Below, in pieces: positions 6,931 through 22,597 of a DNA stretch of 23,155 nt. This DNA comes from a virus. The notes under the pieces are model-generated. The model was not told the DNA's origin and did not search any database. It saw only the letters and a program-made list of their open reading frames with translations. The translations under genes were made by a program, and so were the position numbers. The stretch covers positions 1 to 23,155 of IMG/VR virus record IMGVR_UViG_3300044716_001482, one strand, 5' to 3'. How positions within the stretch are numbered: the first letter of the stretch is position 1; the number at the start of each line of letters is the position of its first letter.

Positions 6931-7457
6931 AAATAGGATTATGTGGAACAATGAGTGTAGGTAAAACCACACTTGTAAACGCACTTAAGGAATTACCAGA
7001 GTTCAAAAACTATACGTTTAGAACTGAACGTTCAAAATATTTAATGGAGCAAGGTATTCCCTTAAACACGGATTCTACACTTAAGGGTCAAACAGTATTT
7101 TTAGCTGAACGAGCTATGGAGCTTATGCAAGAAAATATCATTACAGACCGTACCATAATTGATGTAATGGCTTTTGCTCGTGCTTCTAAGTCAATGGATC
7201 CCGTTGAAAAATATGATTTTGAGCAACTAGCTATGTTGTTAATTAAAGACTATGACTATATTTTTTATATAAACCCAGAAGGAGTAGATATAGAAGATAA
7301 TGGCATACGTGAAACAGATACTGAATATCGTAAGCTAATTGATTTTATAATTGTTAACTATCTTAAATCAAGACGTTCTCTTATTAAAAATTATGGTATA
7401 TTGGAAGGTCCTACTGAAGAGCGTATTAAACAGCTTAAATTTCAATTAGGTTTGTGA
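6927..7457 (+). CDS. P-loop nucleotide or nucleoside kinase-like ATPase (AAA_28/NadR type)
   Basis: This 176-residue protein starts with a clear Walker A loop, GLCGTMSVGKTTLV (residues 4-17). ITDRTIIDVMAFARAS (about 71-86) corresponds to the DR-type acceptor-binding segment of small nucleotide and nucleoside kinases. YDYIFYINPEGVDIEDNGIRETD (about 108-130, in parts) includes the Walker B-like strand followed by an Arg-containing lid. The pattern best fits AAA_28/NadR-like ribosylnicotinamide kinases or deoxynucleoside kinases. Length is normal for such enzymes and no frameshift is visible. It is the last gene of the dehydrogenase-cupin cassette and its stop touches the first base of a late-type promoter box. 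Phosphorylation of a nucleoside or NAD precursor is an inference. Confidence 0.7.
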   Translation: MKIGLCGTMSVGKTTLVNALKELPEFKNYTFRTERSKYLMEQGIPLNTDSTLKGQTVFLAERAMELMQENIITDRTIIDVMAFARASKSMDPVEKYDFEQLAMLLIKDYDYIFYINPEGVDIEDNGIRETDTEYRKLIDFIIVNYLKSRRSLIKNYGILEGPTEERIKQLKFQLGL

Positions 7458-7466
7458 TATTTATAA
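7457..7466 (+). promoter_or_regulatory. Late-promoter-like box ATATTTATAA
   Basis: ATATTTATAA begins at the last base of the kinase stop codon and ends 22 bases before the ATG at 7489. It is one of seven similar intergenic boxes in the window and would drive the AT-hook to terminase unit. Confidence 0.6.
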
Positions 7467-7488
7467 GAAAACTATAATATATTTGAAG

Positions 7489-8244
7489 ATGAGAATATCT
7501 GAATTAAAAAAAGCCATCCGCGAAATGATCGTAAGCGAGTTAAACGAAGAGGAAAGGATTGTTAAAAAAGGAACCCCAATGCCAACAGATGTACAAGTCG
7601 GTGATACTTTAGCAGTAGTTAAAGCAGACGAGGCACTTAATGAAATGGCTAAAATCGCAGGCGATCTAAAAGCAGCAATCGAAAAAGTAATCGAAAAAAA
7701 TAAAGACGCTGAAAAGAAAGACGTTCGTAAGGCTATTAAAACAGACAACGAAGTTCAAGCTGCACTAGGACCTGATGATGATTTATTCGATAACCAACTT
7801 AACAAATTTATCGATCTAGTAAGAGGCGAAAGAGAAGTTGGACAACGCGGACGTAAAGCAGATCCAAACAAACCAGCTAAAGAGCCTAAAGAACCAGGAA
7901 GGCGTGGTCGCCCCAAATCAGCAAATCTTGCTGCCAAGAAAAAAGACGAGAAGGTAAAAACATTCTCAATGACTAAAAAATATTATTCTGATAGCGAAGA
8001 CCAAGACGGACCATCCGATTTGGAACTACGTAAACTAGCTGGTTCAGGTGGTAAACTTGAAAAAGGTAAAACAGCTCAACTCCGTGCTCAAGAAAAAACT
8101 AAATTAGTTAAAGCATTCCTAAAGGATATGAGAGATGCTGGGGTAGTAGATAATGCTAACCGTGTCTTAGATAAAGACAAGTACGCTACAGAGTGGTCAA
8201 AAGCCAAAATCGAAATCGAAGATAAGGTATCTAAGCTTAAATAA
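7489..8244 (+). CDS. Basic AT-hook protein upstream of terminase
   Basis: I chose the ATG at 7489; an in-frame TTG lies at 7483 but adds only two residues. The 251-residue protein is highly charged. Residues 1-20 are an amphipathic leader (MRISELKKAIREM, then SELNEE). Residues 50-120 are helical. Near residue 140 there is an AT-hook-like minor-groove motif, GRRGRPK, in a Pro/Lys-rich linker (PNKPAKEPKEPG). The C-terminal third is helical and basic (KTKLVKAFLKDMRDAG). DNA binding is likely from the AT-hook and charge. Its place two genes before the large terminase makes a small-terminase or packaging-accessory role possible, but there is no direct similarity I can see to gp16. A late-type box lies 22 bases upstream. 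Confidence 0.65.
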   Translation: MRISELKKAIREMIVSELNEEERIVKKGTPMPTDVQVGDTLAVVKADEALNEMAKIAGDLKAAIEKVIEKNKDAEKKDVRKAIKTDNEVQAALGPDDDLFDNQLNKFIDLVRGEREVGQRGRKADPNKPAKEPKEPGRRGRPKSANLAAKKKDEKVKTFSMTKKYYSDSEDQDGPSDLELRKLAGSGGKLEKGKTAQLRAQEKTKLVKAFLKDMRDAGVVDNANRVLDKDKYATEWSKAKIEIEDKVSKLK

Positions 8245-8819
8245 TGAAATATTTTAAAAATATTCAATCACTACTTATAGTAGTGTTGATAGTTGTGATT
8301 TTTTTAATGAGAAGTTGTTCAGGTAAGGGTACACCTACTGAACCACAGATCATTAGAGATACTATTGTTGAATCTATTATGATTGAAAAGCAATACCCTG
8401 TATATGTACCTAAAGTAAAGTATATCACCCAAGTAGATATTGATACATTTAGTACCCCAATCGATACATCAGCTATCTTATCGGACTATTATGCTATCAA
8501 AACCTACGAGGACAAACAAGTATTAGATAGTTTAAACTTAACTATTATCGACACTATATCTCAAAATCAAATTAAAAGCAGAAAAATTAGTTATACTTTT
8601 ACTTACCCTCAAACTACCATTAGAGAAACTATTATTCTAAATAAAAGAGAATTATATTTTGGAATTGGAGCAACTGGAAACCAAGACCAATTACAATATT
8701 TAGGTGGAGAAGTGGTTTTTAGAAATAAAAAAAGACAGGCGTACGGCTTGGGAGTTGGTGTTGATCAAAATCTAGTTCCAGTAATCTCTGCTCGTATGTA
8801 CTGGAAACTAGGAAAATGA
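8244..8819 (+). CDS. Membrane-anchored protein with outer-membrane-like C-terminus
   Basis: This 191-residue protein has one N-terminal hydrophobic span (SLLIVVLIVVIFLM, residues 9-22) preceded by two lysines, so it is probably anchored with the rest outside the cytoplasm. MRSC (22-25) is a weak lipobox-like site. Residues 40-130 contain Thr/Ile-rich strands. The C-terminal part (LYFGIGATG, AYGLGVGVDQ, VPVISARMYWKLGK) reads like beta-hairpins of outer-membrane proteins and ends on an aromatic-basic tail, a style common in Bacteroidota. It overlaps both neighbours (one base upstream, four bases with terminase). A lysis (spanin-like) or envelope role is possible; the family is unknown to me. 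Confidence 0.6.
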   Translation: MKYFKNIQSLLIVVLIVVIFLMRSCSGKGTPTEPQIIRDTIVESIMIEKQYPVYVPKVKYITQVDIDTFSTPIDTSAILSDYYAIKTYEDKQVLDSLNLTIIDTISQNQIKSRKISYTFTYPQTTIRETIILNKRELYFGIGATGNQDQLQYLGGEVVFRNKKRQAYGLGVGVDQNLVPVISARMYWKLGK

Positions 8820-10381
8820 GTGATCAGGATTTAAGAAAAATAATACAACAGGAATACGTAAAATGCGCCCAAGATCCGGCTCACTTTCTACGCAAATACT
8901 GTTATATTCAACACCCCCAACGTGGCCGTGTTGTCTTCAATCTATTTCCATTCCAAGGTAAGGTACTTAACCTTTGGAAAGAAAACCCATATTCGGTTGT
9001 ACTTAAATCTCGCCAGTTAGGTATTTCAACTTTAGCGGCCGGATATTCTTTATGGATGATGACTTTCCATAAAGACAAAAACATACTTTGTTTAGCTACA
9101 AAACAGGAAACAGCTAAAAACATGGTAACCAAGGTAAAATTCATGTATGAAAACCTACCTTCATGGCTTAAAGTACCATCAGACGAAAATAACAAATTAA
9201 CATTAAGATTAAATAACGGTTCTCAAATCAAAGCAGTATCGGCAGCAGGTGATGCTGGTCGATCAGAAGCAGTATCTTTGCTTATAGTGGATGAGGCCGC
9301 GTTTATCGAAAACATCGGAGAAATATGGGCATCAGCACAACAAACACTAGCAACGGGTGGTGGAGCAATAGTACTCTCAACCCCCTATGGAACTGGAAAC
9401 TGGTTCCACCAGCAATGGGTAAGAGCGGAAGCAGCAGAGAACGACTTCTTACCTATCAAGTTACCTTGGTACGTACACCCGGAGAGGGACGAGGCGTGGA
9501 GGAAACGACAAGATGAACTTCTAGGTGATCCTAGAATGGCAGCACAGGAATGTGACTGTGATTTTAGTACCTCGGGAGAAACGGTATTCTATCCCGAATG
9601 GATCGAATTTATAGCCCAAACTACCGTTAAAGAACCGGTTGAAAGACGCGGGGCAGACAAGAACCTATGGGTTTGGCAACCTGCTGATTATTCGCGAGAT
9701 TACATGGTTGTAGCCGACGTGGCTAGGGGTGATGGTAGAGACTTTTCGGCCGCTCACGTGCTCGATATTGAAACAAACACCCAAGTTGCCGAATACAAGG
9801 GACAATTATCGCCAAAAGAATTCGGACATTTTCTAGTAGGACTAGCCGCCGAATACAATAATGCTCTATTGGTAGTAGAGAACGCCTCAATAGGTTGGGC
9901 AACAATAGAAACTGTTATAGAACGCGGCTATCAAAACTTCTACCAGTCACCCAAGAGTGACTTAGTGACAGCTGATTCGTATTTTAACCGATATGAATTT
10001 GGTAATAATTTAACCCCTGGTTTTACAATGTCGCTAAAAACCAGACCACTTGTGGTAAACAAGTTTAGAGAATATATTGGCGATCGTTCTGTAACAATTC
10101 ACTCAAAACGTTTACTAGAGGAAATGAAAGTATTCATTTGGAAAAACGGTAGACCAGAGGCACAAAGCGGATACAACGATGATTTAGTAATGTCGTTTGG
10201 TATTGGAATGCTTTTAAGAGACACATCACTTAAATTCCAGCAACACGGTTTAGACATGACCCGAGCTGCTTTAAACGGGATGACAAAAACACACGGAGGA
10301 GCATATTCAGGCAACGCTGTCCAAAATCCATATACACAAAAAATAGGCAATCAGCAGGAAGATCTCCGTTGGCTCCTTTGA
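8816..10381 (+). CDS. terL: Terminase large subunit (T4 gp17-like)
   Basis: This 521-residue DNA-packaging motor has an N-terminal ATPase and a C-terminal RNase H-like nuclease. The ATPase shows VVLKSRQLGISTL (residues 61-73, Walker A), LLIVDEAAF (155-163, Walker B with Asp159 and Glu160) and IVLSTP (185-190, coupling motif). The nuclease shows VVADVARGDGRDFSAAH (298-314, Asp301), LLVVENASIGWAT (351-363, Glu355) and GYNDDLVMSFGIGM (452-465, Asp455/456), giving the expected acidic triad. The Walker A loop has Ile where T4 gp17 has Lys (GIST versus GKTT), a deviation seen in some terminases where an upstream basic residue takes over. Length is slightly below T4 gp17 (610). It acts at the portal vertex, and the portal gene follows directly behind a late-type box. 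Confidence 0.95.
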   Translation: MSDQDLRKIIQQEYVKCAQDPAHFLRKYCYIQHPQRGRVVFNLFPFQGKVLNLWKENPYSVVLKSRQLGISTLAAGYSLWMMTFHKDKNILCLATKQETAKNMVTKVKFMYENLPSWLKVPSDENNKLTLRLNNGSQIKAVSAAGDAGRSEAVSLLIVDEAAFIENIGEIWASAQQTLATGGGAIVLSTPYGTGNWFHQQWVRAEAAENDFLPIKLPWYVHPERDEAWRKRQDELLGDPRMAAQECDCDFSTSGETVFYPEWIEFIAQTTVKEPVERRGADKNLWVWQPADYSRDYMVVADVARGDGRDFSAAHVLDIETNTQVAEYKGQLSPKEFGHFLVGLAAEYNNALLVVENASIGWATIETVIERGYQNFYQSPKSDLVTADSYFNRYEFGNNLTPGFTMSLKTRPLVVNKFREYIGDRSVTIHSKRLLEEMKVFIWKNGRPEAQSGYNDDLVMSFGIGMLLRDTSLKFQQHGLDMTRAALNGMTKTHGGAYSGNAVQNPYTQKIGNQQEDLRWLL

Positions 10382-10390
10382 TATTTATAA
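10381..10390 (+). promoter_or_regulatory. Late-promoter-like box ATATTTATAA before portal
   Basis: ATATTTATAA starts at the last base of the terminase stop and ends 15 bases before the portal ATG at 10406. The following bases create TATAAT, so it could also be read as a host-type -10 element. Confidence 0.6.
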
Positions 10391-10405
10391 TAATAAAACA
10401 CACAA

Positions 10406-12295
10406 ATGGCTGATACTAGTTTATTTTCCCGATTAAGAAGACTCTTTTCAACTGATGTAATCATCAGAAACGAGGGTGGAAGTCAGCTAAAAGTAGTTGA
10501 TACGGATCATATCCAAACCAGTGGTGAATTCCAAACAAATTCTCTAGTAGATAGGTTTGGAAAAATCTACACTAACCCAGCCTCTACATCTCTTTTAGGT
10601 TCACAATTCAACATACAATATCAGTATCTAAGAACTTATCTTTATAGTGATTACGATGTAATGGATACCGATGCTATTGTAGCTTCTGCCCTTGATATTA
10701 TCTCGGATGAATGTACTTTAAAGAACGATATGGGAGAGGTACTTCAAATTAGAAGTAGCGACGATGATATTCAAAAAATCCTTTATAATCTATTTTACGA
10801 TGTACTTAACATTGAGTTTAATCTATGGTCTTGGGTTCGTCAAATGTGTAAATACGGTGATTTTTTCTTAAAGCTAGAGATCGCAGAAAAATTTGGTGTA
10901 TATAACGTAATTCCTTATACAGCATACCATATTCAAAGACGCGAAAACTTTGACATGGAAAACCCAGCAAAAGTTCAATTCCTTTATTCTCCCGATGGAT
11001 ACTATACGGGTGGTTCAGGTTACTATGCTACTCCAAATACTAAACCATCTGAAAATCAGATTGTATTTGATAACTACGAGGTAGCTCACTTCCGCTTATT
11101 AACGGATGTAAATTATCTTCCCTATGGTCGTTCATATCTTGAACCAGGACGTCGCTTATTTAAGCAATATGTGTTGATGGAGGATGCTATGTTGATCCAC
11201 CGTATTGCTCGTGCCCCAGAAAAACGTATTTTCTATATCAACGTAGGTAATATTCCACCACAAGAGGTTGATGCATTTATGCAAAAAACTATCAACACAA
11301 TGAAGAAAACTCCATTGATGGATGAAAAAACAGGTGAATATAACTTAAAGTACAACATGCAGAATCTACTTGAGGATTTCTACATCCCAGTAAGAGGCAA
11401 TGACACTGCAACTAAAATAGACACTACAAAAGGTCTAGAATACAATGGTATCGAGGACGTAGCTTACCTAAGAGATAAACTATTTGCTGCCCTTAAGGTA
11501 CCTAAAGCGTTCATGGGCTATGAAAAAGACTTAACTGGTAAGGCTACGTTAGCGGCTGAAGATATTCGTTTTGCTCGCACCATTGACCGCATTCAACGAA
11601 TCCTATTATCTGAGCTATACAAGATTGCTTTAGTACACTTGTACTCACAGGGATATGATGGTGAGCAATTAACAAACTTTGAACTTAAGTTAACTACTCC
11701 ATCAATCATTGCAGAGCAAGAAAAAGTTGCTCTACTAAAAGAAAAAGTAGCCCTAGCTAAAGAAATGTTGGATACTAAAATCATCCCATCAGATTGGATT
11801 TATGATAACGTATTCCAATTCAGTCAGGACCAATACGATGAATACCGAGATTTAATTATCCAAGACCAAAAACGCGCATTCCGTAACCAACAAATAGCTG
11901 AAGAAGGTAATGACCCGATCGAAACTGGCCGTTCATACGGAACACCACACGATCTAGCTTCTTTATATGGTAGAGAAAGATACGCTGATAATTCAGTACC
12001 AGATGGGTACGATGAAAAAGCTGAATTAGGTCGCCCTAAAGAAAAAGCATCTAATATAGACACTCAGGATAACCCATTGGGTAGAGATCGTTTAGGTAAA
12101 AAAGATATGAAAAAAGACGACCAAGAAGGTACAGGTAGAACTCAATTTAAAGGTGGTTCACCATTAGCGCTAGAAGGTACTAAACTTGAACTATCTAAAA
12201 ATAGAACATTATTGGAAGGTCTTCACAAAAAACTAGTATTCCAAAGCGATAAAGCTAAAGAATCGTTATTAGATGAGTCTAATCTGACTGATTAA
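10406..12295 (+). CDS. 20: Portal protein (T4 gp20-like)
   Basis: This 629-residue protein matches the T4-type portal that forms the dodecameric DNA entry ring. Recognisable stretches include YLYSDYDVMDTDAIVASALD with ISDECT (around residues 77-102) and the conserved core VNYLPYGRSYLEPGRRLFKQ with MEDAMLIHRIARAPEKRIFY (about 230-275). GNIPPQEVDAFMQ and APKVP-like ALKVPKAFMGYEKDLTGKAT (around 365-385) complete it. It is about 100 residues longer than T4 gp20, and the extra length is a polar, Gly/Lys/Asp-rich C-terminal tail (from about residue 500) that looks disordered. The gene directly follows the terminase, whereas T4 has sheath and tube genes between them. Transcription probably starts at the box at 10381. 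Confidence 0.93.
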   Translation: MADTSLFSRLRRLFSTDVIIRNEGGSQLKVVDTDHIQTSGEFQTNSLVDRFGKIYTNPASTSLLGSQFNIQYQYLRTYLYSDYDVMDTDAIVASALDIISDECTLKNDMGEVLQIRSSDDDIQKILYNLFYDVLNIEFNLWSWVRQMCKYGDFFLKLEIAEKFGVYNVIPYTAYHIQRRENFDMENPAKVQFLYSPDGYYTGGSGYYATPNTKPSENQIVFDNYEVAHFRLLTDVNYLPYGRSYLEPGRRLFKQYVLMEDAMLIHRIARAPEKRIFYINVGNIPPQEVDAFMQKTINTMKKTPLMDEKTGEYNLKYNMQNLLEDFYIPVRGNDTATKIDTTKGLEYNGIEDVAYLRDKLFAALKVPKAFMGYEKDLTGKATLAAEDIRFARTIDRIQRILLSELYKIALVHLYSQGYDGEQLTNFELKLTTPSIIAEQEKVALLKEKVALAKEMLDTKIIPSDWIYDNVFQFSQDQYDEYRDLIIQDQKRAFRNQQIAEEGNDPIETGRSYGTPHDLASLYGRERYADNSVPDGYDEKAELGRPKEKASNIDTQDNPLGRDRLGKKDMKKDDQEGTGRTQFKGGSPLALEGTKLELSKNRTLLEGLHKKLVFQSDKAKESLLDESNLTD

Positions 12296-12305
12296 ATATC
12301 TCAAT

Positions 12306-12315
12306 ATATTTATAA
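12306..12315 (+). promoter_or_regulatory. Late-promoter-like box ATATTTATAA
   Basis: ATATTTATAA lies in the 35-base gap after the portal stop and ends 15 bases before the ATG at 12331, the same spacing as the portal box. Confidence 0.6.
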
Positions 12316-12330
12316 TAAATCCTAATAGGA

Positions 12331-13197
12331 ATGAATATCAAACACTCGAAATATAAAAATACGGGCATTCTATTTGAATTGCTGGTACGCCAAGTAACAG
12401 CTGACACCCTTAACGGTGATCAATCTCCCGCATTAAATATTATTAAGAAATTTTTTGTTAAAAGCGAATTAGGTAAAGAACTCAAATTATATGAGACTTT
12501 AACTAAAAGTAAAAAAATAAACGAATCTCGTTCTAATTTACTTATCCAAACTCTATTAGAGTCATCTAAAAAGCTTAACAAGAAAACGCTTAAAAGAGAA
12601 AAATATAATCTTATTAACGAGATTAAAAAACACTATAATTTAGATGAGTTTTTTAAGACAAAACTTCCTAACTATAAAACACAAGCTGCTTTTTATACAC
12701 TAGTTGAAGCACAAAGCTCAATAGAGATGATCAGTCCTGATCAAATTGTAGCTAATAAGTATAGTATTTTAGAGCACTTAACACTGGGACCAGTTAACCC
12801 AGAAAAAGTAAAAGACGAGGTTTTACAAGAATTCCAAACATACGATAAGGACATAAGAATGTTAACCTATAAAATTTTATTAGAGAAATTTAACGGTAAA
12901 TATTCAGATTTACACGAATCACAAAAAGAGGTACTTAAAGAATTTATCACATCAGTTGATTCAACCCCCAAGCTAAGAACATTCTACAATAATAGAATCC
13001 AGCAACTTAAAGAAGAGTTAGCTATTATTAGCAATACTATAGCAGATAAAGCTGTTCAAATTAAGTTAAACGAGGTGTTACCTCTTATAGTTGAGATAGA
13101 AAAAAATCAACCCATCAGAAACGAAAATATAGTTGATTTACTCCAATACTGCGAACTCGTAGAAGAACTTAAATCAGCTCATGGGTCCTCTATTTAA
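12331..13197 (+). CDS. Conserved helical protein of the portal-protease interval
   Basis: This 288-residue, Lys/Glu/Leu-rich, almost wholly helical protein begins MNIKHSKYKNTGILFELLV. I recognise that N-terminus as conserved in T4-like phages of cyanobacteria and other environmental bacteria, in the same place next to the portal, but its function is not known to me. There are no cysteines in metal-site spacing, no P-loop and no membrane span. Long heptad-like stretches (for example residues 215-255, NNRIQQLKEELAIISNTIAD) suggest coiled coils. Position between gp20 and gp21, where T4 has the prohead-core genes 67 and 68, suggests a role in prohead assembly. It overlaps the following gene by 17 bases. 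Confidence 0.7.
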   Translation: MNIKHSKYKNTGILFELLVRQVTADTLNGDQSPALNIIKKFFVKSELGKELKLYETLTKSKKINESRSNLLIQTLLESSKKLNKKTLKREKYNLINEIKKHYNLDEFFKTKLPNYKTQAAFYTLVEAQSSIEMISPDQIVANKYSILEHLTLGPVNPEKVKDEVLQEFQTYDKDIRMLTYKILLEKFNGKYSDLHESQKEVLKEFITSVDSTPKLRTFYNNRIQQLKEELAIISNTIADKAVQIKLNEVLPLIVEIEKNQPIRNENIVDLLQYCELVEELKSAHGSSI

Positions 13198-13756
13198 CAA
13201 AATTCGGGAAATAGTTAGAGGTAGAAAGTTTATTCTTACCCCTACACCCGGAGGCGAAGAAAACGAATCAGACGTAACATATGTTCCTGATTTTGAAATT
13301 CTTTTAGCAGACATTAATCGCGCTTTAGAAACTCTTAGAGCAATTGCTACTGATCCCCAGGTAATAAATGACCCTAAATTTGGAGAAATATATAACCAAT
13401 TTAGAGTTTTAAGAAATAATCTTAGAACCCACATGCGCACCAAATACCCTTCAGAATACCAAAAGATTAAAGGTATGTTTGAAATGAGTGGTACTGGTGG
13501 TGGTGCCGGAGCCGGATCATTCTCTCCTGGAACTGGTGGTCAATATGCTACCCCATTTGCTTTTAAAAAGATGGGAAAACAAGAATTACCTGAAGCCTCC
13601 CTAGGTGCATCATTAGGTAAGGGACCCAAAGCAGGTCCTAAAGGAGTAACAAATAACTACTATACTAAAAACTTTAAGTATAAACTGGTTAATCCCGTAA
13701 AATTAGCGGCCCAATCTAAGGCAGTAGATACTAAATACCTCTGGGGAAAACCTTAA
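13181..13756 (+). CDS. Unknown head-region protein with Gly-rich centre
   Basis: This 191-residue protein starts inside the end of the previous gene (17-base overlap in another frame). Residues 30-100 are helical (DFEILLADINRALETLRAIA, then FRVLRNNLRTHMRTKYP). Residues 103-122 are a Gly/Ser linker (SGTGGGAGAGSFSPGTGG), followed by YATPFAFKK and a basic, Asn/Tyr-containing tail ending YLWGKP. Linkers of the form TGG.AGAGSF.PG..QYATP.AFKK recur in environmental T4-like phage head-region proteins as I recall. LPE|A at 136-139 resembles a gp21 cleavage site just after the linker. A prohead-core or scaffold-associated role is inferred from position and this site. Confidence 0.65.
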   Translation: MGPLFNKIREIVRGRKFILTPTPGGEENESDVTYVPDFEILLADINRALETLRAIATDPQVINDPKFGEIYNQFRVLRNNLRTHMRTKYPSEYQKIKGMFEMSGTGGGAGAGSFSPGTGGQYATPFAFKKMGKQELPEASLGASLGKGPKAGPKGVTNNYYTKNFKYKLVNPVKLAAQSKAVDTKYLWGKP

Positions 13757-13764
13757 TATTTATA
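13756..13764 (+). promoter_or_regulatory. Late-promoter-like box ATATTTATA close to a start codon
   Basis: ATATTTATA starts at the last base of the preceding stop and ends only three bases before the ATG at 13768. If it works as a -10 element, the transcript would start at or just inside the ORF, so it may mainly serve the genes further downstream or make a leaderless message. Confidence 0.45.
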
Positions 13765-13767
13765 GGT

Positions 13768-14016
13768 ATGTATAAGTATAAACTAAAGACTAGAATCAAC
13801 GAAGCGGATCCTAAAAGAATAGAGTTCCAAAATCAACGCATTGATGCTTTCAAAGCTATTGAATCTAGATTAAACAGTTTATATCCAGCAATTGATAGAG
13901 CAAAAGACGAAACAATAGCATTCTATAAAGAAAAACCAGAATCCTTTGCTGTGGTAAAACCTACAGATCTAATTATGGATTATTTAAACGACATCGAAAA
14001 ATTATTAAATCAATAA
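13768..14016 (+). CDS. Small helical protein, possible prohead-core (gp67/gp68-like) protein
   Basis: This 82-residue charged, helical protein has a basic leader (MYKYKLKTRINEA) with INE|A at residues 10-13, a T4 gp21-type cleavage pattern, followed by a helical body (RIDAFKAIESRLNSLYPAID, then PTDLIMDYLNDIEKLLNQ). Its size, position between portal and protease, and the leader fit T4 prohead-core proteins gp67/gp68, but similarity is not evident at residue level. A GTG or later start is not suggested; the ATG lies just behind a late-type box. Confidence 0.6.
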   Translation: MYKYKLKTRINEADPKRIEFQNQRIDAFKAIESRLNSLYPAIDRAKDETIAFYKEKPESFAVVKPTDLIMDYLNDIEKLLNQ

Positions 14017-14019
14017 AAT

Positions 14020-14283: not shown

Positions 14284-14284
14284 T

Positions 14285-14959: not shown

Positions 14960-15567
14960 TGAAACAAGTATTAATTGAAACCCAAGCGTTTCAGGTTAAT
15001 CCTGTTCAATTAACTGAAGGTACTAAATCTCCAGCAGGCAACCCCATTGTAGAAGGTATTTTAGCTACGGCTGAAGTTAAAAACGGAAACGGCCGTTACT
15101 ACAAAAAAGATCTATGGCAACGCGAAATAGATAGATACATGGAAGTTGTTAAAGAAAACAGAGCAACAGGTGAGCTAGACCATCCAGACTCCTCTATCAT
15201 CAATCTTAAAAACGTATCTCATATTATCCGAAGTATCTTTTGGGATGGAGACCACGTAGTAGGAAAGATAGAAATACTACCAACTGTTTCAGGTAATATT
15301 TTAAAAGCATTAATTGAAAATAATGTTCAAGTAGGTGTTTCTTCTCGCGGTATGGGTTCTTTAAAACAAATGAGTGAAGGTACACTAGAGGTACAAGACG
15401 ACTTTGAACTTCTATGTTGGGATTTTGTTTCTACACCTTCCAATCCAGGTTCATATATGCACTTAGTGCGCGAAGGAAAAGAATACAACACAAGTAACCA
15501 TTACAGTAAAGCAAGTGGAATTTTAACAGAAATTCTATGCGCTAAGGGCACCTGCCCTATTATATAA
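14959..15567 (+). CDS. 21: Prohead maturation protease (T4 gp21-like)
   Basis: This 202-residue serine protease cleaves scaffold, core and capsid proteins during head maturation. Catalytic features are GELDHPD (residues 71-77, His75), GVSSRGMGSL (126-135, Ser128 or 129) and the acidic stretch VQDDFELLCWDFVSTPSNPG (145-164), which supplies the third residue. NGRYYKKDLW (44-53) and the strand VVGKIEIL are typical of the family. LTE|G at 18-21 is a probable self-processing site. Length is close to T4 gp21 (212). The last residues ILCAKGTCPII with two cysteines are unusual. It precedes the scaffold gene as in T4, but a strong terminator lies between them. Confidence 0.93.
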   Translation: MKQVLIETQAFQVNPVQLTEGTKSPAGNPIVEGILATAEVKNGNGRYYKKDLWQREIDRYMEVVKENRATGELDHPDSSIINLKNVSHIIRSIFWDGDHVVGKIEILPTVSGNILKALIENNVQVGVSSRGMGSLKQMSEGTLEVQDDFELLCWDFVSTPSNPGSYMHLVREGKEYNTSNHYSKASGILTEILCAKGTCPII

Positions 15568-15592
15568 ATTTCCCTAGGGCGCTACCTTGGGT

Positions 15593-15618
15593 GGGGAAAC
15601 GCAAGTTTCCCCTTTTTT
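15593..15618 (+). terminator. Strong rho-independent terminator after protease gene
   Basis: A perfect 8-bp stem GGGGAAAC (15593-15600) and GTTTCCCC (15605-15612) with a GCAA tetraloop is followed by six T (15613-15618). It lies 25 bases after the gp21 stop. Confidence 0.93.
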
Positions 15619-15633
15619 ATCTTTGAATAATCC

Positions 15634-15718
15634 ATACATATGTATAGACATAATATGCTATCCTTATATAGCATTTACAAATATATAAATTCCGATTACG
15701 GTTGAATAAATAACCGTA
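15634..15718. promoter_or_regulatory. Palindrome and two hairpins upstream of scaffold gene
   Basis: Three dyad symmetries lie in the 181-base gp21-gp22 gap, after the terminator. They are the palindrome ATACATATGTAT (15634-15645), the hairpin ATGCTAT/ATAGCAT (15655-15661 with 15668-15674) and the hairpin TACGGTT/AACCGTA (15697-15703 with 15712-15718). The last has loop gaataaat. Between them is AATATATAAATTCC. No ATATTTATA box is here, so the scaffold/capsid promoter or a 5' leader structure probably uses these elements; their role is not established. Confidence 0.5.
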
Positions 15719-15748
15719 CCCCCCAAATCAAATTTTGTGGATAAAACA

Positions 15749-16972
15749 ATGGCGAATAGAAACCTATTGAAAGAAGCTATTGCTGATGCTAAATCTGTTA
15801 AAGAAGCAGCCATCGCAAATGCTAAAGCCGCTCTTGAGGAAGCTTTTACACCATACCTAAAGGAAAAATTTTCTGCCAAATTAGCAGAAATGGAAACCGA
15901 AGAAGGTATGTATTATGAAGACGACAAAGAGATGGAAGAAAACTACAGCGAAGGAGAAGTAGAAGAAATGTCAAACTATACCGAAGAAAAACGTACTGAA
16001 AAGATGCGTGAAAAACCTGAAGTAGAAGAGATGGATCTTGACGAACTTTTAGCTGAACTCGATGAGGAAATGAGTAAAGAAAAAGAAATGGAAGAAACTT
16101 TAAACGAAGCTGAAGAAGAAACCGAAGAGGAAGAATCTGAAGAAGTTGAAGGTGAAGAGGACGATGAAATCGACCTTGAAGACATGACTGAAGACGAGCT
16201 TAAAGACTTAATCGAAGACGTAATCGCAGACATGGTTAGAGCTGGTGAGCTCGAAGCCGGTGAAAAATTCGAAGACGAAGAAGACGACGAAGACGACGAA
16301 GAAATCGATTTTGAAGAAGAAGACGAAGAAGAAATAGTATCTGAAAGAAAGCACTACGGTGGTAGTAAAGAGAATATTCCTTCTGCTAAGCGTGGTAAAA
16401 TTAAAAAAGACACCGCTGAAGAAGAAGGCATTGCTGACTATGAAAGATCTAAGAAAAAGATGGACGAAGGAGTAATAGATAAGTTAAAAGATCTTTACAC
16501 TGATAAAGAATTACTTTCTAAAATCATTACTATTGACGGTGAAAAAGTATCTATTCAAGATCTTATTAATTTAGTAAAATCAGGAGCTCCGGCTCGTGAA
16601 GGTATGAATAGAACTGAAGACGAAATGGATGAAATGAAGAAAGAAATTGAAGAATTAGCTTCAACACTTTCTGAAACTAAACTTTTAAACGCTAAACTTC
16701 TTTATACTAACAAAATCTTCAGAGCTAAGAATTTAAACGAAACACAAAAAGTAAAGGTATTGGAAGCTTTTGATAAAGCTGCTTCCGTAAGAGATGCTAA
16801 ACTTATCTACGAGACATTAACCACAGTTAAGGAAACTAAAACTGCTGTTACTGAATCAATGAGAGGTATGGCCTCAAAAGCGGCAGGTATGGCTCCAGAA
16901 AAGAAACCAATCCTTGAGGTAAACGATCAATTCGCTAGATGGCAAATCTTAGCGGGTATCAAAAGAAATTAA
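15749..16972 (+). CDS. 22: Prohead scaffold/core protein (T4 gp22-like)
   Basis: I chose the ATG at 15749; an in-frame GTG at 15737 would add four residues. The 407-residue scaffold has an N-terminal helix MANRNLLKEAIADAKSV with LKE|A at residues 7-10. A very acidic central region follows (residues about 50-205, dominated by Glu/Asp with LNE|A in the middle). The C-terminal half has DLYTDKELLSKIITIDGEKV and a coiled coil (EMKKEIEELASTLSETKLL). It ends with FARWQILAGIKRN, like the conserved end of T4-type gp22. It builds the core around which gp23 assembles and is then degraded by gp21. It is much longer than T4 gp22 (269) because of the acidic stretch. The capsid gene follows 24 bases later, with no promoter or terminator between. 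Confidence 0.88.
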   Translation: MANRNLLKEAIADAKSVKEAAIANAKAALEEAFTPYLKEKFSAKLAEMETEEGMYYEDDKEMEENYSEGEVEEMSNYTEEKRTEKMREKPEVEEMDLDELLAELDEEMSKEKEMEETLNEAEEETEEEESEEVEGEEDDEIDLEDMTEDELKDLIEDVIADMVRAGELEAGEKFEDEEDDEDDEEIDFEEEDEEEIVSERKHYGGSKENIPSAKRGKIKKDTAEEEGIADYERSKKKMDEGVIDKLKDLYTDKELLSKIITIDGEKVSIQDLINLVKSGAPAREGMNRTEDEMDEMKKEIEELASTLSETKLLNAKLLYTNKIFRAKNLNETQKVKVLEAFDKAASVRDAKLIYETLTTVKETKTAVTESMRGMASKAAGMAPEKKPILEVNDQFARWQILAGIKRN

Positions 16973-16996
16973 TAAACAAAAAACCCCTGTAATAAT

Positions 16997-18763
16997 ATGT
17001 CACAAGTACAACAATTACTCGAGTCTGCAGCTTCCGGTTGGAAGAATATGCAGTCTGACGCGGCTAAATTAGCTGCAAAATGGGATAGGACAGGTTTACT
17101 TGAAGGACTCCGTACGGAGACCGACAAGAACAACATGTCTTTAATCCTAGAAAACCAAGCCAAGCAACTAGTAGTAGAGCAATCTTCTGTAGGTGGTGGT
17201 TCAGGTTTCGGTAACTTCACAGTCGGCACAGGTGCCGAATGGGCTGGTATCGCTCTTCCATTAGTACGTAAGGTATTCGGTCAAATCGCTGCTAAAGAAT
17301 TCGTTTCTGTACAGCCTATGAACCTACCTTCCGGTCTTGTATTCTTTTTAGACTTCCAATACGGAACTACTAAGAATCCATTCTCTACTGGAAAATCACT
17401 CTATGGTAACACTGGTTCAGCTAATGGTAACTACCCATTCTCTACAAACCCTAATAACTTAGGTGAGAATAACAACGGTGGTCTATACGGTGCTGGAAGG
17501 TTTACCTATTCAACTAACCAATTCTCATCTTCATTACTAGGTCTTATATCTGGTTCGTCTGCAGCTCCTGCAAATGCTTCCACTGGTAGTCTTACAACCG
17601 CTACTTGGGCAGAATTAAATTTTGATTCAGATATGTCAGCCTCTATTGTTGGTGGTACAGTACTGAAAGCTACTATTTCTGCTTCTGCATTATCTAGCTA
17701 CGATGCTGATGCTGTAAGAGGATTTGTATTAGTATCAGGTTCAGCTACAACTGAGACTGGAGTAAATGGTTTAACTGTAGCTACTGCATTACCACAATTT
17801 ACTACTTTAGATTACACTAACCAAAGAATTTCTTTCTTCTTTACTGCTTCCGCAGCTGTTATTGCAGCAACCGGTTCTTACACTGCGTTTTACAATAAGG
17901 CAACTACAATGAGCCCATACAACGTAGGTGATTTCGAAGCTGGAAACGCATTCGCTGCTCCCAACGCTGAAAGCTCAACTGAAATTGTAATTCCAGAAAT
18001 CAACATCCAACTTCAGTCACAAGCAATTGTTGCTAAGACTAAGAAGTTAAAGGCTGTTTGGACTCCAGAATTCGCCCAAGATCTTAATGCCTACCAGGCA
18101 CTTGACGCAGAAGCTGAAGTAACAAACATCATGAGCGAGTACATTTCTCTTGAAATCGACCTTGAAATTCTTGACATGTTGATCGAAGACGCAGCTGCTG
18201 GTACTGAGTACTGGACTGTATTGAACAACGGTGTTTACAATCCTAGTAATACTAACGGATTTGATTTCCCAACTTCAAGTACAATGACCGGTTACTACAA
18301 TACTCAAGGCCAGTGGTTCCAAACCCTTGGTACTAAGATGCAGAAACTTTCTAACAAGATTCACCAGTTAACCCTTCGTGGTGGTGCAAACTTCTTAGTA
18401 TGTTCCCCAACTGTAGCTACAGTAATTGAATCAATCCCAGGATTCGCTTCAAACTCTGATGGCTCTGCAGACAAAATGGAATACGCGTTTGGTGTACAGA
18501 AAGCTGGTCAATTGAACAGCCGCTATACAGTTTACAAGAATCCTTACATGACTGAAAACACGATCCTTATGGGATTCCGTGGTACTCAGTTCTTGGAGGC
18601 CGGTGCTGTATTTGCTCCTTACATTCCTTTGATCATGACTCCTCTTATCTACGATCCCGATACCTTCACTCCAAGAAAAGGTCTCTTGACTCGCTACGCT
18701 AAGAAGATGCTACGTCCCGAATTTTATGGTAAAATCTTCGTTTCTGGTCTTAACAGCCTCTAA
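16997..18763 (+). CDS. 23: Major capsid protein (T4 gp23-like)
   Basis: This 588-residue shell protein shows the T4-type layout. There is an N-terminal helical propeptide (residues 1-60, WKNMQSDAAKLAAKWDRTGL, then SLILENQAKQLVVEQ). TGAEWAGIALPLVRKVFGQI with AAKEFVSVQPMNLPSG follows at about 79-112, then a Ser/Thr/Gly-rich insertion at about 165-310, then the conserved C-terminal core. The core includes IPEINIQLQSQAIVAKTKKL, KAVWTPEFAQDLNAYQALDA and the C-terminal RKGLLTRYAKKMLRPEFYG. Cleavage by gp21 could occur at VVE61 (same place as T4 Glu65) or LLE36|G37. T4 gp23 is 521 residues; the insertion explains the extra length. Codons in the core favour C/G-ending synonyms more than neighbouring genes, typical of high expression. 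A terminator follows 27 bases after the stop. Confidence 0.96.
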   Translation: MSQVQQLLESAASGWKNMQSDAAKLAAKWDRTGLLEGLRTETDKNNMSLILENQAKQLVVEQSSVGGGSGFGNFTVGTGAEWAGIALPLVRKVFGQIAAKEFVSVQPMNLPSGLVFFLDFQYGTTKNPFSTGKSLYGNTGSANGNYPFSTNPNNLGENNNGGLYGAGRFTYSTNQFSSSLLGLISGSSAAPANASTGSLTTATWAELNFDSDMSASIVGGTVLKATISASALSSYDADAVRGFVLVSGSATTETGVNGLTVATALPQFTTLDYTNQRISFFFTASAAVIAATGSYTAFYNKATTMSPYNVGDFEAGNAFAAPNAESSTEIVIPEINIQLQSQAIVAKTKKLKAVWTPEFAQDLNAYQALDAEAEVTNIMSEYISLEIDLEILDMLIEDAAAGTEYWTVLNNGVYNPSNTNGFDFPTSSTMTGYYNTQGQWFQTLGTKMQKLSNKIHQLTLRGGANFLVCSPTVATVIESIPGFASNSDGSADKMEYAFGVQKAGQLNSRYTVYKNPYMTENTILMGFRGTQFLEAGAVFAPYIPLIMTPLIYDPDTFTPRKGLLTRYAKKMLRPEFYGKIFVSGLNSL

Positions 18764-18789
18764 ACTAGAATAACCTAAAGTTAAATATT

Positions 18790-18818
18790 GAGCCCCGCGA
18801 AAGCGGGGCTCTCTTATT
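18790..18818 (+). terminator. Terminator after major capsid gene
   Basis: A perfect 9-bp stem (GAGCCCCGC, 18790-18798, with GCGGGGCTC, 18803-18811) with a GAAA tetraloop is followed by a short T-rich tail (tcttattt). It is the most GC-rich hairpin in the window. Confidence 0.9.
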
Positions 18819-18820
18819 TA

Positions 18821-18829
18821 ATATTTATA
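18821..18829 (+). promoter_or_regulatory. Late-promoter-like box ATATTTATA before phoH
   Basis: ATATTTATA lies 10 bases after the capsid terminator stem and 35 bases before the phoH ATG at 18865, so it can restart transcription after the capsid unit. Confidence 0.6.
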
Positions 18830-18864
18830 CACGGTAATTATTTATTTAACTTATTAATTAATAT

Positions 18865-19596
18865 ATGGCTTCACACCATCACGAAGATTCAATCTTCCAG
18901 GAAAAACGCAAACCCAAAACACCAATCAAATTTAAAACAGAACTAAATTTAGAACAAAAAGAAGCCAAAGCAAAAATATTACAACACACAGTTACGTTAT
19001 TAGCCGGTTCAGCTGGCTCAGGTAAAACATTTTTAGCGTGTCAAATAGCACTAGAGAAGCTATTTATGAAAGAAGCTGAAAAAATAATCATTACAAGACC
19101 TACCGTATCAAAAGAGGAAATAGGATTTCTACCAGGTGATCTACGCGAAAAAATGGATCCGTGGGTCCAACCCATATACCAAAACATGTATGCTCTATAT
19201 GATAAGGTTAAAGTAGAACAATTTATACAAGCAGGCCAAATTGAAATAGTACCTTTATCATTTATGCGAGGTCGCACTTTTTTAGATTCAATAGTGATAG
19301 TGGACGAGGCACAAAACGTAACACACGAGCAAATGGAAATGATTGTAACACGATTAGGTTTACGCAGTAAAATGATCATTTGTGGAGACGATAACCAAGT
19401 GGATTTAAAATCCAAGCGCGAATCCGGTTTTAGGTTTTTATATACGGGTGCTAAAAAGATAAAAGATCTTTGCGCTATATCCCTTAAAACAAATCATCGC
19501 CACCCAATCGTAGAAGATCTCGTTTCATATTATGAAGAGGCAGCATACCAAGGTATATCATTGGGCACATCTGGTTCAAACGGAAGGAAGAGTTAA
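18865..19596 (+). CDS. phoH: PhoH-like ATPase
   Basis: This 243-residue P-loop ATPase has LLAGSAGSGKTFLACQIAL (residues 45-63, Walker A) and KIIITRPTV (73-81). EIGFLPGDLREKMDPWVQPI (85-104) is a PhoH signature. PLSFMRGRTFLDSIVIVDEA (130-149) holds Walker B with Asp147/Glu148, followed by NVTHEQMEMIVTRLG, and ICGDDNQVD (about 185-193) acts as the sensor. PhoH proteins are cytoplasmic ATPases related to the helicase domain of RecD, often found in marine and environmental phages; the phage function is unsettled. The N-terminus has a short His patch (MASHHHEDS). It sits alone between the capsid terminator and a second box in front of the neck genes, so it may be an independent unit. T4 itself lacks this gene. 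Confidence 0.92.
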   Translation: MASHHHEDSIFQEKRKPKTPIKFKTELNLEQKEAKAKILQHTVTLLAGSAGSGKTFLACQIALEKLFMKEAEKIIITRPTVSKEEIGFLPGDLREKMDPWVQPIYQNMYALYDKVKVEQFIQAGQIEIVPLSFMRGRTFLDSIVIVDEAQNVTHEQMEMIVTRLGLRSKMIICGDDNQVDLKSKRESGFRFLYTGAKKIKDLCAISLKTNHRHPIVEDLVSYYEEAAYQGISLGTSGSNGRKS

Positions 19597-19606
19597 ACCT
19601 TCTTAC

Positions 19607-19616
19607 ATATTTATAA
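19607..19616 (+). promoter_or_regulatory. Late-promoter-like box ATATTTATAA before neck genes
   Basis: ATATTTATAA ends nine bases before the ATG at 19626, in the 29-base gap after phoH. A start site about six bases past the box would leave only a few bases of leader. Confidence 0.55.
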
Positions 19617-19625
19617 CGAAAACGT

Positions 19626-20840
19626 ATGGCAAACATTCCAATTTGGCCTGGGTCCTCTTCATTTGCTGCCGTATCAGCCTCATTTTATAATACTCCATCA
19701 ACAGGTAGTTCACCTACTTCATTTGGGTTTTATGATAATGACTCTGCTTTTAAAACAGACGCAAATAAGGTAGCTAATTTTTGTTCTAGGCGTTTAGGAT
19801 ATCCTATTGAAAACGTAGAACTACAGGATTTAAACTTTTGGACTGCCTTTGAGGAAGCAACAACTATCTATGGTAACGAATTATATGCTTACCAAATTAG
19901 AGAAAACATGCTTAACTTGGAGGGTTTACCTATATCTACCCCCACATTAAACAATACTCAAATTACCCCTAATATGGGTAATATTATCCGTATCTCAGAA
20001 CAATATGGAGAGACAGCCGGGGTAGGAGGAAATACCAATTGGTATTCAGGTTCGGTTATTTTAACTGGCTCAGTTCAGGATTATGATTTAGATGTTTGGG
20101 CCCAACAAAATGGCATTTCAGGAAGTAATTTAGAGATCCAAAACGTATTTTACCACGGTGTTCCCGCTTCAGCTACCTACTACTATGGAGGTGCTGTAGG
20201 TTTAGGATCAGGATTTGGTGGTTTCTTTGGCGCTTTAGGTGGTGTAGCAGGTGCGGGTGGTATAGGTTATTTACAGAACCCCCTAGCATACAACGTAGCG
20301 GCAATTCAGCAAGTAGAATTAGCGGATGAAATTCTTTTATCTGGTTATAGTTTTCAACTTATAAACAATAAGCTAAGAATATTCCCTTGCCCCACAGAAG
20401 GTGATACAGGAACTAATTACTATTTCCAATACCTACTTAAAAGCGAACGTTTAGGGAATTCATTAGTTTCCGGAAGTGGAGTTAGCGGTAGTGGATTAAT
20501 CACTAACGTCTCAAACGCTCCATATGGCAACCCAGTTTATTCTCAAATAAATTCAATAGGGCGTTCCTGGATTTTTGAATATACTTTAGCACTTTCAAAA
20601 GAAATGTTAGGGTATGTTCGCAACAAATATTCACAAATTCCGATTCCGGGTGCTGAAGTTACTTTAAACGGGGATACTTTAACCTCATCTGCAGCTACTG
20701 ATAAAGAGGCTTTAATAACAAGGTTAAGAGAATATTTCAATGAAACCTCTCGCCAATCCATGCTTGAAAGAAGATCATTAGAAGCAGATTTTTCTCAAAC
20801 TGAACTGAATAAAAGCCCAATGACAATCTTCATAGGATGA
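19626..20840 (+). CDS. 13: Neck / head-completion protein (T4 gp13-like)
   Basis: This 404-residue protein probably forms part of the neck that seals the filled head. The N-terminal region has VANFCSRRLGYPIENVELQD and LNFWTAFEEATTIYGNELYA (about 48-90). A Gly-rich loop (about 190-218) follows, then a core with VELADEILLSGYSFQLINNK. The conserved C-terminal block has WIFEYTLALSKEMLGYVRNK, IPIPGAEVTLNGDTL and ALITRLREYFNET. The last block is the part I recognise from gp13-type neck proteins of T4-like phages. It is longer than T4 gp13 (309), mainly through Gly/Ser-rich insertions. Order gp13-gp14-gp15 is kept in the three genes around it. The call is by context plus partial motif recognition; the exact T4 number could differ. 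Confidence 0.7.
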   Translation: MANIPIWPGSSSFAAVSASFYNTPSTGSSPTSFGFYDNDSAFKTDANKVANFCSRRLGYPIENVELQDLNFWTAFEEATTIYGNELYAYQIRENMLNLEGLPISTPTLNNTQITPNMGNIIRISEQYGETAGVGGNTNWYSGSVILTGSVQDYDLDVWAQQNGISGSNLEIQNVFYHGVPASATYYYGGAVGLGSGFGGFFGALGGVAGAGGIGYLQNPLAYNVAAIQQVELADEILLSGYSFQLINNKLRIFPCPTEGDTGTNYYFQYLLKSERLGNSLVSGSGVSGSGLITNVSNAPYGNPVYSQINSIGRSWIFEYTLALSKEMLGYVRNKYSQIPIPGAEVTLNGDTLTSSAATDKEALITRLREYFNETSRQSMLERRSLEADFSQTELNKSPMTIFIG

Positions 20841-21178
20841 TAAAGTTTGCTGATATATTAACTGAGATATTAAACACCTACGAGGTAGATGTTATAATAA
20901 AATCTAATAAAAACCAAAATATTAGCGATATATTGGATCAAATCCGTGCTCTAAGAAAGATCACCACGGTACGAAATATAACCCCACCAGACTATCCACA
21001 AAAAGAGAATATTGAATACACTCGTATTAATATTAAATTTTTAAGCAAAACAGGTAAACCAGAAGAAGATATAAAAGAATTTGAACAAGAAATTCTTACC
21101 TCAGATCAGGACGATAACCTAAAAATACTAGGGGTTATAGGAGCTAATTTTGATATAAATACTTTAAGACGTTTATAG
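20837..21178 (+). CDS. Small unknown protein with conserved leader
   Basis: This 113-residue protein begins MIKFADILTEI, closely matching the leaders at 2297 and 3243, though Ile follows LTE so a protease site is less certain. The body alternates strands and helices (YEVDVIIKSNKNQNISDILDQ, then EYTRINIKFLSKTG, then EEDIKEFEQEILTS) in a beta-alpha-beta-beta-alpha-beta order, like a small ferredoxin-like fold. No function is known to me. It overlaps gp13 by four bases and the next gene by one base, so it is produced with the neck proteins. Confidence 0.6.
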   Translation: MIKFADILTEILNTYEVDVIIKSNKNQNISDILDQIRALRKITTVRNITPPDYPQKENIEYTRINIKFLSKTGKPEEDIKEFEQEILTSDQDDNLKILGVIGANFDINTLRRL

Positions 21179-21714
21179 TGGCTTTATTTGGGCAAGCAAG
21201 AGACATCTCAATGTTTAGATACGTTAACCGTGAGTTGATGCATAACATCATCTCGCAACAGTGTGCTTTTTACCAATTGCAACTAAACGAAACAGCATTT
21301 AATATGTACGGGGAAGCTGCTGAAGATAAATACTATAATGGTCCTTTCCTTTTATACACATTAATAGATCTACCAGACCAAAATTTTCCAACAGGAGAAA
21401 TGGGTGTAGATTTTGATTGGAAACCCACATTCAGATTTTTAAGAGACGATTTAACAACCGGTTCTTTAGGGTATTCTAATCTAACAGAAGACATTGTTCC
21501 CCAAGTAGGTGATATAATCTTCTATCAAGAATCATATTACGAGATCACCAACATAAACGAGGCACAATATTTTGTAGGTAAAAACCCAGATTACCCTAAT
21601 AATCCTAATCCATTAGAAACAGATTTAGCAGAGTTTGGATATAATGTCTCCATTATATGCAGCACAATCTATGTTCCTGCTGATAAGGTCGGACTAAGTA
21701 AAGAAAGAACATAA
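21178..21714 (+). CDS. 14: Neck protein (T4 gp14-like)
   Basis: This 178-residue protein starts with GTG overlapping the previous TAG by one base (no in-frame ATG lies earlier in the ORF). It contains DISMFRYVNRELMHNIISQQ, then CAFYQLQLNETAFNMYGEAA (residues 9-48), FDWKPTFRFLRDD and the block VGDIIFYQESYYEITNINEA (about 112-131) with QYFVGK. The GDxIxF...YEIxxI...F.xG pattern also occurs in T4 gp14 (GDLIYF...FEINWVEP...YQLG), supporting a neck role. It is shorter than T4 gp14 (256), lacking the C-terminal extension. Order between gp13-like and gp15-like genes agrees. Confidence 0.72.
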   Translation: MALFGQARDISMFRYVNRELMHNIISQQCAFYQLQLNETAFNMYGEAAEDKYYNGPFLLYTLIDLPDQNFPTGEMGVDFDWKPTFRFLRDDLTTGSLGYSNLTEDIVPQVGDIIFYQESYYEITNINEAQYFVGKNPDYPNNPNPLETDLAEFGYNVSIICSTIYVPADKVGLSKERT

Positions 21715-22568
21715 TGCCACAATATAGAAAACCTACCCCTAAAACTCAGAAACAATTATCTGAGGAACAGCACGTACCTACTTACCCTCAATACGGGAAT
21801 CCTAATGCATCAGTTCCGGCAAGCAATAATAGGGGTACAAAAATTTCATGGGAAGGGGATGATGCCAAACTTTTTTCTATTGGTATTAAAGACATAGATG
21901 AGGCTGTAATGTATTATATGAAAAGTATAATTAAACCTTACGTTCTACAAAATGGTGAAAGAATAGAAGTACCTGTTATTTATGGTTCTCCTGAAAGATG
22001 GAAATCAGTTCAACGCGATGGGTATTACAAGGATAAAAACGGGGCTATAATGCTTCCTTTAATTATATTTAAAAGAGATAGTATTGAAAAAGTTAGAAGT
22101 TTTGGTAATAAATTAGATGCTAATACACCTAACAATTACCAAATCTTTGAAAAAAAATACACAGCTAGAAATGCTTATAATAGTTTTGATGTTTTAAATG
22201 GGATAAAACCACAAAAAGAATACTATGCTGTAGTTATACCTGATTTTGTTAATGTAACATACTCTTGTATTGTGTCTACCTATTATATAGAACAACTAAA
22301 TAAAATAGTTGAAGCTATCAATTATGCCTCTGACACATACTGGGGTGATCCCGACCGTTATAAATTCCGTATTAGTATTAATACAATTCAAACTCCAACC
22401 GAATTAGTACAAGACAGTTTACGTTCAGTAAAAGCCAATTTTTCACTGACTTTATACGGGCAAATAGCTCCGGATGTACCACAAAAAGATTTATCAGCTA
22501 TTAATAAGTTTTTTGATAAAACTAAAGCAATATTTTCTATAGAAACCGTATCTCAGTTACCTAAATAA
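21714..22568 (+). CDS. 15: Tail completion / sheath stabiliser protein (T4 gp15-like)
   Basis: This 284-residue protein has a disordered N-terminus (PTPKTQKQLSEEQHVPTYPQ, residues 7-26, then an Asn/Pro stretch). The fold starts at DIDEAVMYYMKSIIKPYVL, with ERIEVPVIYGSPERWKSVQR (about 82-101) and MLPLIIFKRD. YYAVVIPDFVNVTYSCIV is followed by YYIEQLNKIVEAINYASDTY (about 173-210) and SVKANFSLTLYGQIAP. The order VPVxYxSxExx, PxIxFxxxx, YxxxIxTxxxxQxxxIVExI and LxWSLTFEVNG-like is the one shown by T4 gp15, the hexamer capping the tail tube and sheath. Length is close to T4 gp15 (272). It overlaps gp14 by one base and ends in a weak terminator. Confidence 0.8.
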   Translation: MPQYRKPTPKTQKQLSEEQHVPTYPQYGNPNASVPASNNRGTKISWEGDDAKLFSIGIKDIDEAVMYYMKSIIKPYVLQNGERIEVPVIYGSPERWKSVQRDGYYKDKNGAIMLPLIIFKRDSIEKVRSFGNKLDANTPNNYQIFEKKYTARNAYNSFDVLNGIKPQKEYYAVVIPDFVNVTYSCIVSTYYIEQLNKIVEAINYASDTYWGDPDRYKFRISINTIQTPTELVQDSLRSVKANFSLTLYGQIAPDVPQKDLSAINKFFDKTKAIFSIETVSQLPK

Positions 22569-22587
22569 GACATTCGCCTTATTTTTT
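22563..22587 (+). terminator. Weak AT-rich terminator after gp15-like gene
   Basis: A 7-bp stem AAATAAG (22563-22569) with CTTATTT (22578-22584) spans the stop codon and is followed by T residues. It is AT-rich, so it may only attenuate. Confidence 0.5.
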
Positions 22588-22588
22588 A

Positions 22589-22597
22589 ATATTTATT
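22589..22597 (+). promoter_or_regulatory. Degenerate late box ATATTTATT before fibre gene
   Basis: ATATTTATT differs from the common ATATTTATA at one base and lies 28 bases before the ATG at 22626. Confidence 0.45.

Follow-up and report, generated by a model that had tools for sequence, protein, structure and literature searches.

A probable variant of the T4 late promoter, with the same sense as the genes, in phages related to Flavobacterium phage immuto

The late promoters of phage T4 consist of an 8-bp box, TATAAATA, which has no -35 element, is followed by an AT-rich stretch and lies 5’ of virion genes (PMC2988020, PMC7892883). The box is recognised by gp55, a phage-encoded protein with sigma region 2, whose deep pockets take the bases A-12 and A-8 and whose shallow pocket takes A-9 (PMC7892883). 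In a promoter of this type the transcript begins roughly one helical turn 3’ of the box. Variants of this box have been described across T4-like phages, including cyanophages, KVP40 and Aeh1, the last with a/gC at -13/-12; none of the promoters named there has a central TT or is described with a leaderless spacing (PMC2988020). The sigma A promoter of Bacteroidota combines a TTG at -33 with a -7 element, TAnnTTTG, which in F. psychrophilum extends from -12 to -5 (PMC9723704). Furthermore, the leaderless ‘TA-led’ genes of bacteria carry a -10-type box about 12 nt 5’ of the ATG, which was taken there as a mark of leaderless transcripts; these are host genes, with almost none in Bacteroidetes/Chlorobi (1 of 37 genomes) (PMC3160421). 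With regard to the boxes discussed below, TATTTATA and ATATTTATA, nothing relevant on their use as a phage promoter was found in the open-licence literature, which is not proof of absence.

The window, that is the whole stretch of 23,155 nucleotides analysed here, is 100% identical to positions 30542-53696 of a viral contig of 53,717 bases (IMGVR_UViG_3300042997_001874, hereafter G004), which encodes a T4-like terminase, portal, scaffold and capsid. The nearest named phages are Flavobacterium phage immuto, whose portal protein is 59% identical, and Microcystis phage Mel-JY01. The host is probably a member of the Bacteroidota, since relatives of the portal occur in MAGs assigned to Flavobacteriaceae and to Bacteroidetes (one each); other matches fall in Pelagibacter and Euryarchaeota bins, and MAG bins may contain foreign contigs. 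Mel-JY01 (PP395634.1) has Microcystis as its reported host, yet it is most closely related to Bacteroidota phages that carry the same box. The reading that we favour, with a probability of roughly 0.85, is that the boxes are late promoters of T4-like phages, oriented in the same sense as the genes and read by a gp55-like sigma factor of the phage. The relevant features of the window are the following.

3962..3970, + strand: ATATTTATA within the ORF 3779-4039, 68 nt from ATG 4039, probably a chance occurrence
7457..7465, + strand: predicted late promoter box ATATTTATA, 20 nt to ATG 7486, predicted +1 at about 7469-7470
10381..10389, + strand: predicted late promoter box of the portal gene, 16 nt to ATG 10406, predicted +1 at about 10393-10394
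12306..12314, + strand: predicted late promoter box, 16 nt to ATG 12331, predicted +1 at about 12318; 42 sites at orthologous genes keep the box
13756..13764, + strand: predicted late promoter box, 3 nt to ATG 13768, predicted leaderless mRNA with the A of the ATG as +1
15638..15646, + strand: possible weak box ATATGTATA with one mismatch, weakly supported, in the gap 5’ of the scaffold-like gene at 15737 and upstream of the capsid gene
18790..18819 (approximate), + strand: intrinsic terminator-like hairpin GAGCCCCGCGAAAGCGGGGCTC and T-rich run, ending just 5’ of the box at 18821
18821..18829, + strand: predicted late promoter box of a PhoH-like gene, terminator directly 5’, 35 nt to ATG 18865
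19607..19615, + strand: predicted late promoter box, 10 nt to ATG 19626
22589..22597, + strand: box variant ATATTTATT, 28 nt to ATG 22626; its last-position T occurs in 29% of the mapped sites

The + strand of the window has seven copies of ATATTTATA and the - strand none, against 1.07 copies expected, and seven copies were reached in 0 of 100 shuffles. Six of the seven are intergenic, where 0.19 would be expected in the 673 gap bases counted, and none of the gap copies is reversed. The earlier note had listed these six sites and the one-base variant at 22589 as a repeated box 5’ of + strand genes, which holds, with the copy at 3962 overlooked; it was likewise correct about the short gaps ahead of the next gene (28, 24, 35, 11, 101, 29 and 57 bases) and about the three boxes (7457, 10381 and 13756) that begin on the final base of the preceding stop codon. 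Upstream of the capsid gene a perfect box is missing, and the one candidate there is the box at 15638 with its single mismatch. The 169-base gap 5’ of the scaffold-like gene (15567-15737) contains a hairpin together with several AT-rich palindromes, and no perfect box. Among the other genes, inspection by eye revealed a kinase-like fragment (3243-3758), an FAD/NAD-type oxidoreductase (4908-6278), two cupin-like proteins (3779-4039 and 6547-6930) and, truncated by the window end, a gene with long collagen-like Gly-Thr-Ser-Gly repeats (22626-23155).

When the sites are aligned, the core is TATTTAT, preceded by A or C and followed by A or T, with the flanking A or C depending on the lineage; the search pattern itself imposes the invariance of this core in the alignment, including A-12 and A-8. 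Upstream of the box the information content of the alignment is close to zero and there is no -35 element. An AT-rich segment follows immediately 3’, with A enriched at nucleotides 3-6 (frequencies of 0.6-0.86; among the leadered sites, 0.86 at nucleotide 4 and 0.79 at nucleotide 5). Compared in the same sense, TATTTATA and the T4 box are identical at 6 of 8 positions, although the full TATAAATA sequence is not attained: the two central bases at -9 and -10 differ, TAT[AA]ATA in T4 becoming TAT[TT]ATA. A-12 and A-8, the deep-pocket bases of T4 gp55, are present in all the boxes of the window, and a new factor may use the same gp55 pockets for them, by analogy with T4. On these sequence features, the box appears to be a variant form of the T4 late promoter.

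The earlier note had described the box as the reverse complement of the T4 promoter and proposed that a sigma-like factor might read it in the opposite sense. Its view of a late-promoter-like element related to T4 stands, as the box recurs and a gp55-like sigma gene is encoded in the same phage. The opposite-sense part does not: read in one and the same direction, both TATAAATA and TATTTATA fit T-A-T-x-x-A-T-A, and the bases for the deep pockets are retained; because the T4 box is nearly palindromic, two central bases account for the whole difference and a reverse-complement reading is unnecessary. It was right that TATAAATA is absent from the coding strand at the box sites, the sole sense copy (21154) lying within a gene. 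A second suggestion, that the functional element is the TATAAT created at 10381 and 12306, was dropped: the word is real at both sites, but across 91 sites TATTTAT forms the core, and TATAAT depends on the first T after TATTTATAA, a base conserved in just 43% of them.

The strand bias that the earlier note had proposed to count is pronounced, with sense to antisense box counts of 14:0 in G004 and 243:7 among the portal relatives. Similar counts were obtained for the contigs with a sigma gene of the window type (158:2), for CTATTTATA where the contig carries a distant sigma gene of the immuto type (101:1) and for other long records (36:3 in G002, 20:2 in G001 and 16:1 in immuto). In five genomes the box core is the first or near-first 8-mer of the gaps and its reverse complement is nearly absent. 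A coding-strand box precedes the portal start in most of 80 relatives, as well as in immuto and Mel-JY01, and the approximately 12 relatives without a box at the portal have it elsewhere. A search for the box signal in the first 50 kb of RM378 found none. Hairpins followed by a T-run lie directly 5’ of some boxes, both in the window (18821) and in immuto gaps (118931, 130514 and 149689), which fits a restart of transcription after the terminator.

The comparison with immuto also bears on the best surviving alternative, according to which the box is read by a sigma factor of the host, either sigma A or an alternative one, and the sigma-like protein of the phage serves otherwise. Like the Bacteroidota -7 element, the box has TA and T at corresponding positions, and it would occupy the same -12 to -5 position, at a similar distance from the start and probably on the same polymerase, in hosts that appear to be Bacteroidota (PMC9723704). 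Nevertheless, the boxes have neither the -33 TTG signal upstream nor the TTTG with its G, and the box is a distinct word that is nearly invariant where the host motif is free. Moreover, of the immuto gene starts 23 have the box, 16 the host-like TATATTTAG/TATATTTG and none both; in the structural arm (78-160 kb) there are 16 boxes and no host-like motifs (Fisher 7e-6), and the genes preceded by a box include those for the portal, terminase, tail sheath, tail tube, hub and tape measure. We therefore regard recognition by a host sigma as unlikely. The TATATTTAG/TATATTTG class itself (immuto NC_055915, L091, 60-77 kb; gaps of G002) resembles host sigma A promoters, mostly precedes small early-type genes and is accompanied in G002 by an upstream GTTTGGC.

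The distance from the box end to the ATG spans 3 to 35 nt and is bimodal, with a class at 3-5 nt, a dearth at 6-9 and a second class at 10-22. Counting each orthogroup-distance pair once gives 29 pairs at 3-5, 11 at 6-9 and 47 at 10-13, and the portal orthogroup, in which the N-terminus is the same, shows 6 sites at 3-4, none at 5-9 and 47 at 10-21. The pooled and deduplicated test of the 6-9 gap in four genomes is marginal (p 0.03), and the family-wide test is stronger. The close class comprises 69 of 343 deduplicated sites, approximately 20%, with 10527 and 142474 as examples in immuto, and the 3-nt spacing of box 13756 is found at 4 of 5 orthologous sites. In the T4 control this class is absent and the minimum distance is 13 nt, as opposed to 3 nt in the immuto-type phages.

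The A at the fourth and fifth nucleotide after the box is conserved even where the ATG is distant, and together with the spacing this places the predicted transcription start at that A, the simplest reading, with the same geometry relative to +1 as the -7 box of F. psychrophilum (PMC9723704). Starting there, about a fifth of the mapped sites, 13756 among them, would yield leaderless mRNAs, as in the TA-led genes. The dearth at 6-9 nt would then most simply mean that leaders of zero or of at least about 6 nt are tolerated and those of 1-5 nt avoided.

The spacing likewise weighs on the proposal of an RNA or translation element, such as a site of ribosome landing or mRNA processing, instead of a promoter. 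The box is always near start codons, and Bacteroidota do without Shine-Dalgarno signals and use upstream A’s instead (PMC6847099). Yet most genes, including early genes of the same phage, lack the box, the boxes come after terminators, and a spacing that runs from 3 to 35 nt and breaks at 6-9 is what a transcription start would give and a strange pattern for a ribosome site, so that this explanation seems improbable. Still less credible is antisense transcription from a genuine T4 box in the template strand: the opposite strand does read exactly TATAAATA, but the terminators upstream, the conserved A’s downstream and the bimodal spacing to the start codon indicate initiation towards the gene, and with two central bases separating the box from T4 in the same sense no reversal is needed. 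Chance recurrence of an AT-only word in AT-rich gaps is practically negligible, given six gap copies against 0.19 expected and the strand bias across the relatives.

Returning to the late-promoter reading, a candidate for the factor that would read the box is encoded on the same contig by a previously unannotated sigma-region-2 gene (G004:1506-2228), the outcome of a search for gp55/gp33-like proteins that the earlier note had suggested and that detected no gp33. The gene is also present in G001, G002, Mel-JY01 and immuto (gp118, annotated as hypothetical); a scan of viral contigs for the Mel-JY01 sigma found none. The Pfam search with sigma region 2 matched four relatives weakly. Of 43 members, 31 match Sigma70_r2 (best 2.5e-4), with scores under the curated cut-off in those records that the search covered, and 20 match the PHROG late sigma family (phrog_234), more than match any other PHROG (best 0.0012). 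Against a profile of T4 and cyanophage gp55, hhalign returned an E-value of 9e-4 with a probability of 23% and a score of 27.5, compared with at most 19.8 in 30 shuffles, and the alignment of the family to T4 gp55 singly was not significant. For the predicted N-terminal fold (pTM 0.77) the matches are for the most part domains of sigma region 2, at weak Foldseek E-values (>0.001); the search with the full-length predicted fold (pTM 0.43) was not significant, and a PDB sequence search with the sigma alignment gave no match.

With regard to the residues that line the gp55 pockets, Y97 of the -12 pocket is kept, F86 corresponds to Y/F, L54 to I and H95 to Y/F, and N13, R57 and T99 are changed. 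A link between the box change and H95 was abandoned because cyanophage gp55 likewise has F at that position. Thus, the identification of the protein as a sigma factor appears well supported by sequence and predicted fold, and it is likely a gp55 orthologue, although ‘sigma-region-2 protein’ is preferable to ‘gp55’ as a name because the homology to gp55 is marginal. Its co-occurrence with the box suggests that it would be the reader. Unlike T4 gp55, the protein has a conserved C-terminal extension of about 100 residues (residues 148-234 in L097:1506-2225), with possible HTH helices (FNKKALYIYIRE..KTPKITKIAN). A further difference concerns the T4 sliding clamp gp45, an activator of late transcription, and the co-activator gp33: the gp45 profiles PF02916 and PF09116 detected nothing in the relatives (PF09116 finds T4), nor did the gp33 profile PF16805, which also finds T4, although a diverged clamp or a short diverged gp33 could escape such profiles.

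Taken together, each box, [A/C]TATTTAT[A/T], may act on its own as a -10-type element, with AT-rich sequence behind it and no need of a -35 element. A phage sigma distantly related to T4 gp55 would recognise it in concert with the host RNA polymerase, and the first transcribed base would be the A that lies 4-5 nt 3’ of the box. Genes with a spacing of 3-5 nt would accordingly give leaderless mRNAs, presumably translated as such, and most remaining genes mRNAs with short leaders of some 6-17 nt, unaided by Shine-Dalgarno signals. Gene identity suggests that this transcription is late. More tentatively, and at somewhat less than even odds, the C-terminal domain of the sigma itself might replace gp33 and the clamp across a widespread set of T4-like Bacteroidota phages, with the altered box fitting it and many virion mRNAs being leaderless.

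If true, a sizeable fraction of virion mRNAs would be leaderless in hosts that seldom use leaderless translation, since mapped mRNAs are leaderless in only 5.5% of cases in F. psychrophilum (PMC9723704). The late-promoter reading itself provides a readable rule for such promoters, and a candidate sigma, for a group of environmental phages that is large and known chiefly through metagenomes. The cultured phage immuto (Flavobacterium LMO8) makes it testable how a gp55-like factor alters the box it reads and whether late transcription of the T4 type can proceed without a sliding clamp. Furthermore, the predicted leaderless late mRNAs bear on how the ribosomes of Bacteroidota, which do without Shine-Dalgarno signals, find their starts.
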